IMG/VR virus record: IMGVR_UViG_3300018080_000009
Span: 1 to 64,000 of that record
DNA: 64,000 nt
Reading direction: 5' to 3' (one strand)
Source: a virus
Shown piece by piece: positions 1,180 through 6,408 of the stretch (position 1 is the first letter of the stretch; every line of letters starts with the position of its first letter). A program made the position numbers and the translations under genes. The notes under the pieces are model-generated. The model was not told the DNA's origin. It saw nothing but the letters and a program-made list of their open reading frames with translations, and did not search any database.

Positions 1180-1192
1180 AATGAGGCCCTAA
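1166..1192 (+). pseudogene. Perfect Shine-Dalgarno followed by a 3-codon ORF
   Basis: AAGGAGGTGAT (1166-1176) is an exact complement of the bacterial 16S rRNA 3' end and stands 8 bases before ATG AGG CCC TAA (1181-1192). Such a strong initiation site for three codons suggests either the stump of a gene whose body has been lost in the following 395 bases or a minimal leader peptide. The gene-loss reading is inference; no homologous remnant is recognisable on the + strand. Confidence 0.4.
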
Positions 1193-1574
1193 GTACTCAA
1201 TAAGTTCTGATGTCATAGAATAATCTCGCACAAAATATCCCCGAACAATAAGAAGACTCCCCGTAGATGTAAAATCTATCCATAGAAGTCCGTTATGCAT
1301 ACCAAAGGTATCAAGCTATCTATAGGTTTGATTCCATTCACAAATAGGTTGAGAATCTAACAAGTTTCGACCCTTAAAGTTTCAGATCTGCAGCAGGGGG
1401 CCAACTGACATTTTTACTGGGTAGAGCATAAAGGTGTACTGCATTTATTGTGTGTGGGGTAGTGGAGTAGTGGTTTATTGGTGTGCGTGTTGAGATTATG
1501 TATTGGTAGAATGGGGTGGGGTATGCGTAGGGGTGTGGGATGTGTTATTGTAATAGGAGACATAGGAGAGAGAC
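1193..1574 (+). other. Gene-poor stretch upstream of terL
   Basis: About 380 bases without a convincing gene. The first part has short inverted repeats (TAGAT/ATCTA near 1265, ATACC-AAA-GGTAT at 1298-1310). The minus strand has an open frame of 46 codons (1300 down to 1160) with no ribosome-binding site. From about 1440 to 1560 the + strand is G/T-rich and nearly free of C, with four G-runs at 1513-1539 that fit a G-quadruplex pattern (loops 1, 8 and 3). It could carry a packaging site or a terL leader; neither is shown by sequence alone. Confidence 0.4.
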
Positions 1575-4445
1575 ATGGAAGAGATGAACAGCAGGGTGGA
1601 CGAGATTGGGAGTGGTGTAGGGAGTGAGGTAGGGGATTTTTCCGGCGAATTGTCTAATGAGCAGTGTGCGAAGTTAGCGGACATGGTGATGATGTTTGCT
1701 GAGGAGATGATAGGGTTTGAGTTATACCCATATGAGAGGGAGTTTGGGTGGCGGATATGTTATTCAGTAATTATTGAGGATGCGGAGGAGATCACCGCGC
1801 TTTTTTCCAGGCAGAGTGGGAAGACGGAGACGGTAGCGACGGTAGTAGATGCGTTGATGGTATTACTTCCAGTATTTGCGAAGGTACTTAGCAGTGATAG
1901 CAGGTTATTGAAGTTCAGGAACGGGTTTTGGGTAGGGATTTACGCACCTGGGTATGAGCAATCTGAGATAATGTTTGATAGGATGAAGGCGCGGATGTAC
2001 AGCAAAGCCAGTATGAAGATCCTGCTTGATCCTGATATTGACATTGATTTATTGGATGCGCCGAAAAATATGGAGTTACCTAACGGTTCGTTTGCGCATT
2101 GTGGTACGGCGGCGCCACAAGCCAGTATCGAGGGCAAGACATTTCATTTAATCATTTTTGAAGAATGTGTAGGACCTGAATCGTTAGTTACGACTCCTGA
2201 TGGTGACTTTCCTATAGTTGATTTGGTTGAGAATTCATATAGCGGAAAAGTCCGTGCTTTTTCTCATGATAAAAACGAAATAGTGTGGGCAGATGTTCTG
2301 GGGGTATTAGAAATTGAACCCCGTCATCAGTGTTTCGAATTGACCTTCTCTGATAATACTGTCCACAGGTGTACTGGAGATCATCGTTGGTTTATTGAGG
2401 GCGTTGGTTATGTATCTACTTATCAGCTTTATACGTTGGCGTATTTTTCTTATAATAATAGTAAGTTAGGAGTTGATAGTGATACTAACCGATCAAATGC
2501 TATTAGGAACTCTATTAGGAGATGGCTCTCTGAATTACCCGGACAAGAAATACTCGAAAAGTCCGCGGTATGTGATGAATCATTCTACGAAACAGATCGA
2601 ATATGCGAAGGAGAAGCTCAAGAGACTGAAGAAATATGGTGCAGAAAAAATACAAATAGTAAAGAATCCAGGAAAAGGAAAGATGTGGGCTCGGATAGTG
2701 GGGAAATGTCGACCAGAACTGATTCCATATCACGAAGCGTTTTATCCAAAGGGGAAGAAAGGAGTATCTCAAAGAATTCTGAATTCCCTAGACAAAGAAG
2801 GTCTAGCTTGGTGGTGGATGGACGACGGCCATGTAAATACGAGACAGAATATGGGTCAGTTATCGACGAACGGTTTCACCAAAGAAGAGACAGAGATGAT
2901 TTCCAGTTGGTTTGTAACGAAATGGGGAGTAAATTCTGTAGTGCAATTAGAGAACAGATCGATGACGTATCAATTGAGATTCAGGGTAAGAGATTTGGAG
3001 ATGCTATCTACAGTAATCAGGGATTACGTATTCGATTCTATGATGCACAAAGTAATACCTACGAGAGAGGCGGTATGCGCCATCTGTCAAAAGACGTTTG
3101 CTCCAAAGAAGATAAGAGTACCGAACCCGTGTTGTTCATTAGAATGCAGGAAGATAAGAAAGAAGGAATACGACTTATTAAGATCCAAGGAATTGAAAGC
3201 CCTCCGAAAGTCTATGATCTAAAAACATCCGAAGGTAATTTCTTTGTGGGAAATGTTCTTACCCACAACTGCCAAGACATCAGTAGTGAGAAGATACGTG
3301 CGAGCATTCATCCCATGGCGAGTGCGACTGCGGGAACGCTAATAAAGATTGGAACCTGTAGTCCGAATAAGAGTGATTTTTACGAAGCGTGCAGGAGAAA
3401 TCAGAGAAATGATGTTAACAAAGGATTAGCACGCAGCAAGTATCGAGCTCACTTTCAATATGACTATACTGTTGCGCAAAGGTATAACCCTCGGTATCGG
3501 AAATACGTGGAGAAGGAGAAAGAGCGACTGGGCGAGGATTCCGATGAATTCAAGATGAAATACCGACTTATTTGGATGTTAGAACGAGGCATGTACGTCA
3601 GTCCCGATATGCTAGATGAGTGTGGGGTGAAGACCAGTAATGATAAAGTTACTGTTGAAAAGGGAAAAGGCCGGAGGAAGAAAGTATTTACATTCACACG
3701 TAGTTCCAACGTAACCACCTACGACCCGTTGAATTCTGATATTTGTGCGGCGATAGACGTAGGTAGGGAGAATTCGACTGTAGTTACCGTAGCGAAAGTA
3801 TTCTGGGAATGTCCTGTACTTTACGGTGACGAAGACAGGTATTTTTGTCATGTGTACAATTGGTTGGAATTAGTTGGTGATCAACACGAAGCCCAATGGC
3901 CACAGATACTTGAGTTCCTCGATAATTATCTAATTGGACAAGTAATCGTTGATGCAACTGGAAAGGGAGATCCCGTATATTCACGACTTGCGGCGGAATT
4001 AGATTCCAAAGGGATCACAGTCACGCCATTTTTATTCTCCAGCCAGAGCAAAGACGTTGGGTACAAAGTACTGTTACAAGAATTGACTGCGCGTAGAATG
4101 ACTTTTCCAGCTGGATCTAGAGTTACGAGGATGAAAAAATATCAGAGATTTTATCAACAAATGTGTGACCTCGAAAAAAGATGGCGTGGACAGACGATGG
4201 TAGTTGAGAAACCCCGTGATGTTCAAGACGCGCATGACGACTATCCTGACTCACTTATGATGTTGTGTTGGTTAGTAAACGTCAGGGGTAGTATGGAAGT
4301 AGAAACTGCTCCAAATATGTTATTAGGTAGAATGAGTGGAATGGCTTCTAATATGGCGACAAGTGCCAGAGAGTGGTATCGTAAAAGAGTAAGTACTCCA
4401 AGGAGAGTACCGCGACCTAGCCATAGAGGAAGGTGGGATAGTTAA
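1575..4445 (+). CDS. terL: Terminase large subunit precursor containing an intein
   Basis: 956-codon precursor; removal of the 368-residue intein leaves a 588-residue TerL, a normal size. TerL is the motor that cuts and pumps DNA into the prohead through the portal. Walker A is RQSGKT at residues 79-84 and Walker B is LIIFEE at 192-197. The C-terminal RNase H-like nuclease shows conserved acidic patches AAIDVGREN, VIVDATGKG and DAHDDYPDS. The intein starts at Cys198, immediately after the Walker B glutamates, and ends at Asn565 before Cys566, so an unspliced protein could not be an active ATPase. AGGAGAGAGAC precedes the start. The N-extein codons are G-richer than the rest of the gene. No clear small terminase gene lies just upstream. 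Confidence 0.95.
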   Translation: MEEMNSRVDEIGSGVGSEVGDFSGELSNEQCAKLADMVMMFAEEMIGFELYPYEREFGWRICYSVIIEDAEEITALFSRQSGKTETVATVVDALMVLLPVFAKVLSSDSRLLKFRNGFWVGIYAPGYEQSEIMFDRMKARMYSKASMKILLDPDIDIDLLDAPKNMELPNGSFAHCGTAAPQASIEGKTFHLIIFEECVGPESLVTTPDGDFPIVDLVENSYSGKVRAFSHDKNEIVWADVLGVLEIEPRHQCFELTFSDNTVHRCTGDHRWFIEGVGYVSTYQLYTLAYFSYNNSKLGVDSDTNRSNAIRNSIRRWLSELPGQEILEKSAVCDESFYETDRICEGEAQETEEIWCRKNTNSKESRKRKDVGSDSGEMSTRTDSISRSVLSKGEERSISKNSEFPRQRRSSLVVDGRRPCKYETEYGSVIDERFHQRRDRDDFQLVCNEMGSKFCSAIREQIDDVSIEIQGKRFGDAIYSNQGLRIRFYDAQSNTYERGGMRHLSKDVCSKEDKSTEPVLFIRMQEDKKEGIRLIKIQGIESPPKVYDLKTSEGNFFVGNVLTHNCQDISSEKIRASIHPMASATAGTLIKIGTCSPNKSDFYEACRRNQRNDVNKGLARSKYRAHFQYDYTVAQRYNPRYRKYVEKEKERLGEDSDEFKMKYRLIWMLERGMYVSPDMLDECGVKTSNDKVTVEKGKGRRKKVFTFTRSSNVTTYDPLNSDICAAIDVGRENSTVVTVAKVFWECPVLYGDEDRYFCHVYNWLELVGDQHEAQWPQILEFLDNYLIGQVIVDATGKGDPVYSRLAAELDSKGITVTPFLFSSQSKDVGYKVLLQELTARRMTFPAGSRVTRMKKYQRFYQQMCDLEKRWRGQTMVVEKPRDVQDAHDDYPDSLMMLCWLVNVRGSMEVETAPNMLLGRMSGMASNMATSAREWYRKRVSTPRRVPRPSHRGRWDS
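2166..3269 (+). mobile_element. TerL intein with an out-of-frame nested endonuclease gene
   Basis: In-frame insert of 368 residues (precursor 198-565). Block A starts CVGPESLVTTPDG; block B has the TxxH signature CTGDHRWF with Thr267 and His270; block F/G is VYDLKTSEGNFFVGN ending LTHN before Cys566. All residues needed for class 1 splicing (Cys1, block B His, penultimate His, terminal Asn, Cys+1) are present. Between about residue 302 and 550 the intein frame translates to a Ser/Arg/Glu/Lys-rich sequence unlike a folded domain, because that DNA carries a LAGLIDADG endonuclease in the +1 frame. Leaving out the overlap gives roughly 137 residues, the size of a mini-intein. Confidence 0.92.
2479..3222 (+). 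CDS. LAGLIDADG homing endonuclease nested in the intein, +1 frame
   Basis: 247 residues read in the +1 frame relative to terL, inside the intein. Motif 1 is LLGTLLGDGSL (about residues 8-18) and motif 2 is GLAWWWMDDGHV (about 108-119), giving a two-motif monomeric endonuclease. The C-terminus has CAIC and later PCCSLEC, a zinc-finger-like cluster. The frame opens with TTG at 2473, but AGGAG (2468-2472) touches that codon; GTG at 2479 has a 6-base spacer and is the better start. ATG at 2497 would cut into motif 1. It ends in its own TAA, inside intein block F coding. It would cut intein-less terL alleles and so spread the intein. Target and expression are inferred. Confidence 0.88.
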   Translation: MILTDQMLLGTLLGDGSLNYPDKKYSKSPRYVMNHSTKQIEYAKEKLKRLKKYGAEKIQIVKNPGKGKMWARIVGKCRPELIPYHEAFYPKGKKGVSQRILNSLDKEGLAWWWMDDGHVNTRQNMGQLSTNGFTKEETEMISSWFVTKWGVNSVVQLENRSMTYQLRFRVRDLEMLSTVIRDYVFDSMMHKVIPTREAVCAICQKTFAPKKIRVPNPCCSLECRKIRKKEYDLLRSKELKALRKSMI

Positions 4446-4458
4446 ATGGAGATGGTTC

Positions 4459-4821
4459 ATGACCAAACATAGTAATGAAACAAAGAGAAAAATAAGTCAT
4501 AGTGTTAGGAGAACGAATTCAGTCAAGAAATATGGTTTGTCCCCTACTCAAGCACGTATGGAAGCACTTGCCGAAGGATTCAAAGAGGGACACCCAGAAG
4601 GTTTAGAAGTGAATACTGTTCGTAATTATGGTGACTTGGGAAAAGATACAGTTTACATTGGGGATGAACCCATTGTAGAAATACAGAAAGATGAAAGAAT
4701 CCTGGCATATGAAGAACAAAAACGACTTGAAGCTGAAAAAGCAAAAGAGGGCCCTAAACCAGATATAGTTTTTCAGAAGTTAAGTGTAGAAAAGCCAGAG
4801 AAAAACGCAGAATTAAAGTAG
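4459..4821 (+). CDS. Hypothetical head-region protein
   Basis: 120 codons between terL and portal, ATG with GGAG about 7 bases upstream. The N-terminus is basic (residues 1-25 rich in Lys/Arg/Ser) and the C-terminal third is a charged helix (EEQKRLEAEKAKEGPKP). No cysteines, signal or known motif. The position suggests a packaging or portal-vertex accessory role, but nothing in the sequence shows it. Confidence 0.6.
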   Translation: MTKHSNETKRKISHSVRRTNSVKKYGLSPTQARMEALAEGFKEGHPEGLEVNTVRNYGDLGKDTVYIGDEPIVEIQKDERILAYEEQKRLEAEKAKEGPKPDIVFQKLSVEKPEKNAELK

Positions 4822-4830
4822 GAGGATCTA

Positions 4831-6408
4831 ATGGCCGATCTTGCATACCAAGCCAGTGCTCATGGCGGGATTCAGAATTTATTCGAAATGATGTTTGGCG
4901 ATGATCTGTACAGAGCACATTCGAGAAGGCTTTCGTTGTACAGACGATATTGGCAATTTTATTTGGGCAAGCATTGGTCATATGAAAGAGATCCGGGAGA
5001 GCCTACGACTACAGTCAACTATTCTAAGAGATGTTTGGATCTACATAATGATTTCACGTTCAAAAAAGGATTTTCAACAGTCATTCCAGATGACCCAGGG
5101 ACTCCAGAGGATGAAAAAAGTAATCGTGAATTCATTCGACTTATGTTGGAAGAGACTTGGAGGAGAAATAACAAGTTTCTTTGGGGGTTGGAAGCCGGCC
5201 AGATGGGTGGAGTCACTGGAGATTGTTTCGTTAGGATTTCTTGGGAGACTGAAGACCCCTTGGAAGACCCGTATGCCCGTGCTGATATTATCCCAAGCCA
5301 TTTGTGTTTCCCCGAATTTGGGGGACCGCACGGGGTCGACAGAAAAAAGCTAACCCGTATTGCGATTGTCACCCCTGTTTTCAAGTATCCTGAACAGTTA
5401 CCAGCAGCTCAGTATCGTAGCAGGTCAGTTGGAGTAGCTGCTCAAGTTACGATAAATGCCGAAGTATGGACGGCAGCTACATATAATAGGGATGGAACTA
5501 TCAAGACCCCATGTACTGTCCAGGAATATGTAGATGGTGAGCCTAGTGGAAATCCAGTTGTCAGTTCCTTGGGTGAAATTCCTGTAGTGCATATTCCGAA
5601 TTACCCTCTTGCTGGGGAATATTTTGGTCTGTCGGACATGATAGACAGTGTAGAAATCAATCGTGAGTTGAATGAGAAGATGACTGATATTTCAGACATC
5701 ATTAATTACCATGCTTCACCGCAGACAATTCTCTATGGAGTCAAGCTCAGGGATCTGGAAAAGGGTGCTAACAGGATGTGGGCTGTTCCAGCTGATGCTA
5801 GGGTAGAGAATTTGGAGTTGGATAGCAATCTCGAAGCTTCCAATAAGTACATTGAACTCCTGAGAAAGTCTTTATTCGAGTTGACAAGTACTCCTGAGAA
5901 CATTTTGGGTTCGACTACTCAAGCTATCAGCAATACGACTGGTGTTGCACTTCAGTTGCAGTTTCTTCCGATGATAGCGAAGAGAGATATTAAGGTTTTG
6001 ACCTATAGTCATGGTTTGAGACTTGTTAATAGGTTGATGATAAAGATTACGGAGCTTGCAGATCCTGATTTCAGAATGAAAATGAAAGGTCTGAAGGGAA
6101 ATAAGTATAGGAACAATGTAGTGTTCCCAGATCCATTGCCACATGACGAGTTGAAAGAGCTTGAGAAAGCAATAATGAAGATAGAAGCAGGATTGTCGGC
6201 CAGAAGATTAGAACTGGCTAATATGGGTAAGTCCCAGAAAGAGATTGAAGATATTCTGAAGATCATTGCTGATGAACAAGCTGAAGACAGAGAGAGTGAA
6301 TTCGATTGGGGTGTTTCGGGTTCGGGAAATAATCCTAGATCGACAGGGGGTCCAGATGGCACTCGTGGAGAGAAGATAACTAATACGACAATACAGAAGA
6401 ATGCATAG
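4831..6408 (+). CDS. Portal protein
   Basis: 525 codons, AGGAGG at 4821-4826 before ATG. Portal proteins form the dodecameric ring through which DNA enters and leaves the head. Length, position right after terL and before the minor head protein, and features such as LGEIPVVHIPNYPLAGEY, the long hinge helix region around residues 330-420 (STPENILGSTTQAISNTTG, then LQLQFLPMIAKRD) match the SPP1 gp6-like portal group. The C-terminal tail is polar and Gly/Asn-rich. It overlaps the next gene by one base. Confidence 0.9.
   Translation: MADLAYQASAHGGIQNLFEMMFGDDLYRAHSRRLSLYRRYWQFYLGKHWSYERDPGEPTTTVNYSKRCLDLHNDFTFKKGFSTVIPDDPGTPEDEKSNREFIRLMLEETWRRNNKFLWGLEAGQMGGVTGDCFVRISWETEDPLEDPYARADIIPSHLCFPEFGGPHGVDRKKLTRIAIVTPVFKYPEQLPAAQYRSRSVGVAAQVTINAEVWTAATYNRDGTIKTPCTVQEYVDGEPSGNPVVSSLGEIPVVHIPNYPLAGEYFGLSDMIDSVEINRELNEKMTDISDIINYHASPQTILYGVKLRDLEKGANRMWAVPADARVENLELDSNLEASNKYIELLRKSLFELTSTPENILGSTTQAISNTTGVALQLQFLPMIAKRDIKVLTYSHGLRLVNRLMIKITELADPDFRMKMKGLKGNKYRNNVVFPDPLPHDELKELEKAIMKIEAGLSARRLELANMGKSQKEIEDILKIIADEQAEDRESEFDWGVSGSGNNPRSTGGPDGTRGEKITNTTIQKNA

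Follow-up and report, generated by a model that had tools for sequence, protein, structure and literature searches.

Introduction

Full inteins carry their homing endonuclease in frame, fused as a domain between splicing blocks B and F. In fractured genes, reportedly described by Dassa et al. in 2009, a free-standing nuclease is said to lie between the halves of a split intein. Here we analyse a 64,000-nt stretch of viral DNA (the window; positions 1 to 64,000 of the 104-kb IMG/VR virus record IMGVR_UViG_3300018080_000009), in which terL, the gene for the terminase large subunit, contains an intein with its LAGLIDADG homing endonuclease encoded in another, overlapping frame. The element is very probably a mobile, protein-splicing mini-intein whose homing endonuclease is encoded by a separate gene that lies between blocks B and F and is read in +1.

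In the ShiLan domain (Pacc40), an out-of-frame HNH nuclease occupies an insert in a phage methylase gene that stays open in the host frame (Arsenault, Gosselin and Gogarten 2025, PMC11855218). Engineered mini-inteins derived from the Ssp DnaX intein splice in E. coli according to the relevant passages of two papers (PMC3620165, PMC3443213), and these passages make no mention of a hidden out-of-frame nuclease. The ShiLan domain is the nearest published case, and novelty is claimed with reserve, as earlier work on DnaX inteins and work from 2025 on actinophage inteins may describe part of the arrangement.

Results and discussion

Anatomy of the terL intein and its nested nuclease

An earlier note on this DNA had placed splicing blocks A, B, F and G in the terL frame and both LAGLIDADG motifs in the +1 frame. 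Analysis of open reading frames (ORFs), alignments and Pfam matches confirm this assignment, and the coordinates given there for terL, intein and nuclease all check out (Table 1). Thus, where a canonical full intein has its endonuclease in frame, between blocks B and F, the endonuclease is here read in +1. The intein directly follows the Walker-B residues LIIFEE and ends in HN before a Cys; C1, T70 and H73 are conserved in alignments, as are the block F Asp and the terminal HN·C (a dot marks the junction here and below). It is the only intein that a record-wide search of the 104-kb record returned. The nuclease ORF sits entirely within the intein, and its stop codon falls inside the block F codons. 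The long low-complexity loop described in the earlier note is present, but the overlap is not confined to it: the last ~32 nuclease codons also overlap the folded C-terminal Hint part.

Table 1. Features of the terL locus; coordinates refer to the whole 64,000-nt window
Feature	Coordinates	Strand	Remarks
terL (terminase large subunit) ORF	1575..4445	+	956 aa with intein, 588 aa once spliced
Intein	2166-3269	+	368 aa; C1...H367-N368, then C+1
Intein N-terminal splicing part	2166..2478	+	Cys1, block A; block B CTGDH with T70 and H73
Shine-Dalgarno-like AGGAG	2468..2472	+	6 nt before nuclease GTG
Homing endonuclease gene, out of frame (+1)	2479..3222	+	GTG to TAA, 247 aa
Same DNA, terL frame: open low-complexity loop, predicted disordered	2481..3125	+	~intein residues 100-320
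Intein C-terminal splicing part	3126..3269	+	block F VYDLKT, block G NVLTHN
C-extein +1 Cys (CQDI)	3270..3272	+	intein-less homologues: EE·T/S/A/C-QDI here

The Pfam Terminase_6N/6C matches of terL are weak and sub-threshold. Its product is 28-36% identical (tblastn) to annotated terminases of Streptomyces phages and to those of other phages, and the C-extein reaches 60-68% identity to closer IMG/VR homologues.

The nuclease displays the motifs LLGTLLGDGS and LAWWWMDDG and a putative C-terminal zinc finger (CxxC...C...C). It matches Pfam LAGLIDADG_2 (PF03161) with E=3e-29 and 102.5 bits (cut-off 25), as the only ORF in the 104-kb record to do so, and D15, D115 and D116 are invariant in 22 sequences. 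Profile matches in the PDB include 6x1j (1e-31) and 1r7m (7e-25). AlphaFold2 predicts the fold with a predicted local distance difference test (pLDDT) score of 95.3 and a predicted template modelling (pTM) score of 0.85, and Foldseek returns I-WcaI (6x1j, 1.6e-13) and I-SceI (1.5e-11) as nearest solved relatives of the model. For the intein, AlphaFold2 predicts a Hint fold formed by residues 1-99 and 321-368, mostly at pLDDT >90, with residues 100-320 disordered (pLDDT <50). The intein model matches the NrdJ-1, NpuDnaB and RecA inteins (Foldseek, E 8e-6 to 1e-4). At the profile level, the window intein alone matches NrdJ-1 (E=6e-5), and the profile of the intein class described below matches the Spirulina DnaX mini-intein 7cfv with E=3.5e-48.

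These features bear on the possibility that the element is a ShiLan-like retained insertion, i.e. an open insert with an out-of-frame nuclease that is never spliced out. An insert of this kind has been published (PMC11855218), and the window intein falls under the curated intein cut-offs (see below). Against this stand the conserved C1, TxxH, block F Asp and HN·C, the confidently predicted Hint fold with its likeness to solved inteins, and the match of class members to the structure entry of the Spl DnaX mini-intein. Moreover, 368 unspliced residues at the ATPase Walker-B motif of an essential enzyme would disable it. A retained insertion is consequently regarded as extremely unlikely, and a ShiLan-type insertion lacking splicing domains is rejected, as splicing blocks and Hint fold are present. 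A group I intron was likewise discarded: Rfam gave no match at gathering thresholds, nor at E<=1 in 1200-4600.

Recurrence in phages and cyanobacteria

Relatives were sought in IMG/VR and GTDB genomes with a three-sequence nuclease alignment and then classified by frame; single-protein scans had returned few relatives, and a nine-sequence alignment was too divergent to serve as query. Host-gene names are our reading of the translations, except for annotated records. The search revealed 47 distinct nested loci, 12 viral (window included) and 35 cyanobacterial, in genes for TerL, helicases and DnaX, with the nuclease shifted by either +1 or -1. Class A (+1) comprises TerL inteins (window, L017 and L018, with L020 and L026 at a second site), GpA-like terminases (L031, L033) and Ski2-like helicases (L023, L029, L038). 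Class B (-1) is found in helicases (L008, from the isolated Xanthomonas phage FoX3, and L062) and in the DnaX of cyanobacteria such as Nostoc, Planktothrix, Microcystis and Microcoleus. All inteins with located ends are inserted directly after the Walker-B DE/EE, except L020 and L026, and in the intact cases inspected the nuclease occupies the space between blocks B and F. A DNA search of plasmids gave no match. An out-of-frame nuclease within an intein is a recurrent class. The two frame offsets, the recurrence and the membership of cyanobacterial DnaX inteins go beyond the earlier note.

As the window is a single metagenomic contig, an assembly or sequencing artefact with compensating indels was also considered. 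Two such indels cannot yield an open second frame, and the same architecture is present in isolates (FoX3, Microcoleus vaginatus HSN003, Nostoc strains) and in independent contigs. This recurrence rules the artefact out; no compensating indels are needed to explain the frames, and the open intein frame is conserved in relatives.

The longest nested case, L031 (3435-4973), has a nuclease ORF of ~510 aa with a long repetitive charged tail, entirely inside an open 637-aa terminase intein frame. The nested nuclease of FoX3 (L008/L236) is unannotated in both of its records (MT161383 and NC_055837), and RefSeq labels the intein-bearing helicase "head morphogenesis".

Dual openness and selection on the two frames

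The terL frame had been described in the earlier note as open across the overlap and rich in Ser, Arg and Glu. Both statements hold: the 247 host-frame codons that overlap the nuclease ORF include no stop, and the three residues make up 34% of the host-frame overlap vs ~22% of the exteins. When the nuclease ORF was shuffled synonymously 1000 times, keeping protein and codon usage, the shuffled sequences had a mean of 11.5 host-frame stops and a minimum of 4 (the third frame of the real sequence has 35). Because the shuffles never fell below four stops vs zero observed, a chance open frame is excluded. The same follows from 113 unique non-nested nuclease relatives (in-frame inteins and free-standing genes), none of which has an open alternative frame; L125 seems to be an exception but proves to be a nested DnaX copy truncated by the end of its contig.

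The nucleases of the window, L017 and L018 are 51-53% identical, with four-fold silent sites near random (0.17-0.31). For window-L018 and L017-L018, host-frame identity matches the null set by the nuclease, and for window-L017 it exceeds this null slightly (z=2.3). A moderate excess over the null is seen in several other pairs, owing in part to silent sites that have not reached saturation. Substitutions were further compared in eight close pairs of cyanobacteria: those silent in the nuclease but altering the host frame reach 2.28x their neutral share, compared to 0.86x for those changing the nuclease only and 0.51x for those changing both frames. Substitutions scored as host stop amount to 0.15x (three cases), and these are multi-change codons, as no host-frame stop exists. 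Taken together, the substitution shares and the identity at saturated silent sites indicate purifying selection on the nuclease frame and a host frame that is kept open, with a loop sequence that appears nearly free. Functional conservation of the loop sequence is accordingly weak at most, with window-L018 exactly at the null, and patches in the loop such as VVDGR simply reflect the nuclease motif WWMDDG.

In four cyanobacterial DnaX inteins (L108, L110, L111, L116) the nested nuclease is riddled with nonsense codons and the host frame is intact; therefore the nuclease can die and the host gene survive. This bears on the suggestion that dual coding uncouples nuclease supply from terminase expression and splicing, which it may do. 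Together with the nuclease remnant of L214, these copies would also suit a view of the nuclease as a decaying relic, in which a domain once in frame with the intein has shifted frame and died. For the window this appears very unlikely. Its nuclease is intact, with both catalytic motifs and a pLDDT of 95, its amino acids are conserved although silent sites are saturated, and the lack of host-frame stops requires selection in both frames.

Start of the nuclease gene

In the window, a stop codon in the nuclease frame lies 3 codons ahead of the GTG. Such a stop lies 1-8 codons before the start in most nested loci, and class A loci mostly have the nuclease frame shut just upstream of the start. Shine-Dalgarno-like sequences (AGGAG, GGAGGT, GGAGG) precede the start in several nested loci, and in the cyanobacterial genes the nuclease ATG is embedded in Gly-Trp codons near block B. 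A sigma-70-like match (TTTATA-17-TATAAT, 10/12) is found just upstream of the nuclease start, at 2428-2456 of the window. RNA folding around the start is unremarkable.

These observations allow an assessment of programmed ribosomal frameshifting at the border of block B and nuclease, by which the nuclease would mainly be made as a fusion to the N-terminal TerL/intein part. The two overlapping frames share orientation and one transcript, and frameshifting is used by phages. Yet the stop codons just described leave almost no room to shift, and the start codon keeps the same place, with Shine-Dalgarno-like sequences in several loci. We thus hold a frameshift fusion to be decidedly unlikely and favour a separate nuclease gene with its own start.

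Upstream of terL itself, ~395 bp (window 1180-1574) are without an obvious gene, G/T-rich at ~1430-1560; Rfam and tRNA searches of 1180-1574 gave no match.

Presence, absence and mobility

Most TerL homologues of ~46-68% identity have an empty site (EE·T/S/A/C-QDI). L214 contains a shrunken intein with the nuclease remnant in the +1 frame. The clearest polymorphism is seen among isolated phages: a 942-bp insert of FoX3, exact against FoX5 and Murka, is missing from FoX1, FoX2, FoX5, Murka and M29, with flanks that are 97-99.5% identical. Compared to Murka, the left flank of FoX3 differs only at the last base before the insert. The junction codons read GAG·TGT in the empty site and GAA·TGC in FoX3, and both changes are synonymous, a pattern that fits co-conversion or site protection. 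The FoX polymorphism and its near-identical flanks suggest that the nuclease may cleave the empty site and drive homing. Among cyanobacteria, Microcystis has a full-length nested intein of 430 aa as well as a mini-intein of 148 aa, the Hint parts of the two being nearly identical, and other cyanobacterial mini-inteins without nuclease exist.

Other TerL sites are occupied as well. Four close TerL homologues (L210, L211, L212, L217) carry ordinary in-frame or mini inteins, either in the Walker-A GK·T region or immediately before TAG(S/T)LVKIGT; some of these genes hold two.

Origins of the arrangement

In the nuclease tree, the -1 class forms one clade (support 100/94). The +1 class needs 5 changes, 3 of them forced by well-supported branches, and the in-frame inteins L042 and L069 group with the nested L020/L026 (96/88). 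By the approximately unbiased (AU) test, grouping all nested loci in one clade is disfavoured (p=0.019), and with it a single origin; a clade of the +1 loci alone is borderline (p=0.057). In L037 (and L085), TerL is broken at the same Walker-B site (~2700-5360): a first ORF with N-TerL and N-intein ends in a TGA that overlaps the ATG of a second ORF, which encodes nuclease, zinc fingers, C-intein and C-TerL. The locus thus holds a natural split intein whose C-half is joined to the nuclease, and the two ORFs are likely coupled in translation.

The forms seen around this one nuclease family are nested +1, nested -1, in-frame sisters, a split host gene, decayed and nuclease-less. Such a mixture, and the result of the AU test, are what would be predicted if separate nuclease genes, each equipped with its own start, had repeatedly entered mini-inteins in one or the other shifted frame, and if only some of them had later been fused in frame or had broken the host gene. 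This history is possible, albeit far from assured.

Proposed mechanism and its support

We propose that terL is translated straight through, that the Hint parts fold and that the long loop remains mostly disordered. Based on the conserved catalytic residues and the fold, the intein would excise itself and leave the 588-aa TerL. Internal initiation at the GTG, assisted by the Shine-Dalgarno-like sequence, would yield a free I-SceI-like LAGLIDADG nuclease with a zinc-finger tail. In terL genes without the intein, this nuclease would cleave at the Walker-B codons, and the intein would then be copied into the break during repair. The host frame is held free of stops by selection, and the protein-level constraint acts on the nuclease frame. 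The central proposal of the earlier note, that one DNA segment yields both a mini-intein, with a long loop of low complexity, and a separate nuclease, is supported by the 47 nested open-frame loci and further backed by nuclease-frame selection, structure predictions and start signals.

Several points weigh against this mechanism. Splicing, independent translation, cutting and homing in this phage are what we infer from the features above, homing specifically from distribution and flanks. In the relevant passages on DnaX splicing, the constructs had the putative endonuclease region deleted and were not the window intein (PMC3620165, PMC3443213). The window intein scores under curated cut-offs (PF14890, 22.7 vs 35.8 bits; TIGR01445, 22.1 vs 24.5 bits). 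The Shine-Dalgarno-like sequence is weak or missing in several nested loci, and the promoter search before the nuclease start gave a match count at chance level for the region. With regard to the scores, a curated cut-off is a sensitivity threshold and no defining feature of the splicing reaction; the FoX3 and DnaX inteins, relatives of the window intein, pass TIGR01445 and TIGR01443.

The wider implication is that selfish elements need not fuse splicing and nuclease in one protein. The two activities can share DNA and not frame, in an essential phage gene as well as in dnaX of many cyanobacteria. If so, intein surveys confined to the host frame would record these elements as mini-inteins, or as inteins with an unusual spacer, and overlook the nuclease, as exemplified by the FoX3 record annotated with the helicase alone. 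Such elements also provide long natural stretches of dual-coded DNA, with a folded enzyme in one frame and a mostly tolerated loop in the other. How nucleases and splicing domains were joined becomes testable in isolates that differ by the insert.

Comparison with known systems

Canonical bifunctional inteins (PI-PfuI type; here L010, the KLEP7 RNA ligase, L012 and L069) share with the window intein the Hint fold, a LAGLIDADG nuclease between blocks B and F and insertion at a conserved site of the host protein. Their nuclease is a domain in the same frame, whereas that of the window has an ORF and a start codon of its own, in a different frame. Fractured split-intein genes resemble the window in that the nuclease is a gene of its own at the endonuclease position; there the host gene is broken and splicing occurs in trans, while terL is intact and codes in two frames. 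L037/L085 looks intermediate in form. The ShiLan insert and the window intein both hold a homing-type nuclease out of frame in an open insert, with a GTG start in ShiLan as well. The ShiLan nuclease is of the HNH type, however, no Shine-Dalgarno sequence was detected there, and its insert is thought to be retained and is without an intein splicing domain, in contrast to the LAGLIDADG nuclease and splicing blocks of the window.

Cyanobacterial DnaX inteins (Ssp/Spl DnaX; PDB 7cfv) belong to the same architectural class, with 430 aa and insertion at the DnaX Walker-B motif. In the DnaX inteins of the cyanobacterial genomes examined, an I-SceI-like nuclease is nested out of frame. It is read in -1 and has an extra N-terminal part, as opposed to the +1 nuclease of the window. 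Finally, I-SceI and I-WcaI (PDB 1r7m, 6x1j) have the same fold as the window nuclease, with paired LAGLIDADG motifs and conserved Asp; both are intron-borne, whereas the window nuclease is intein-borne and has a putative C-terminal zinc finger.

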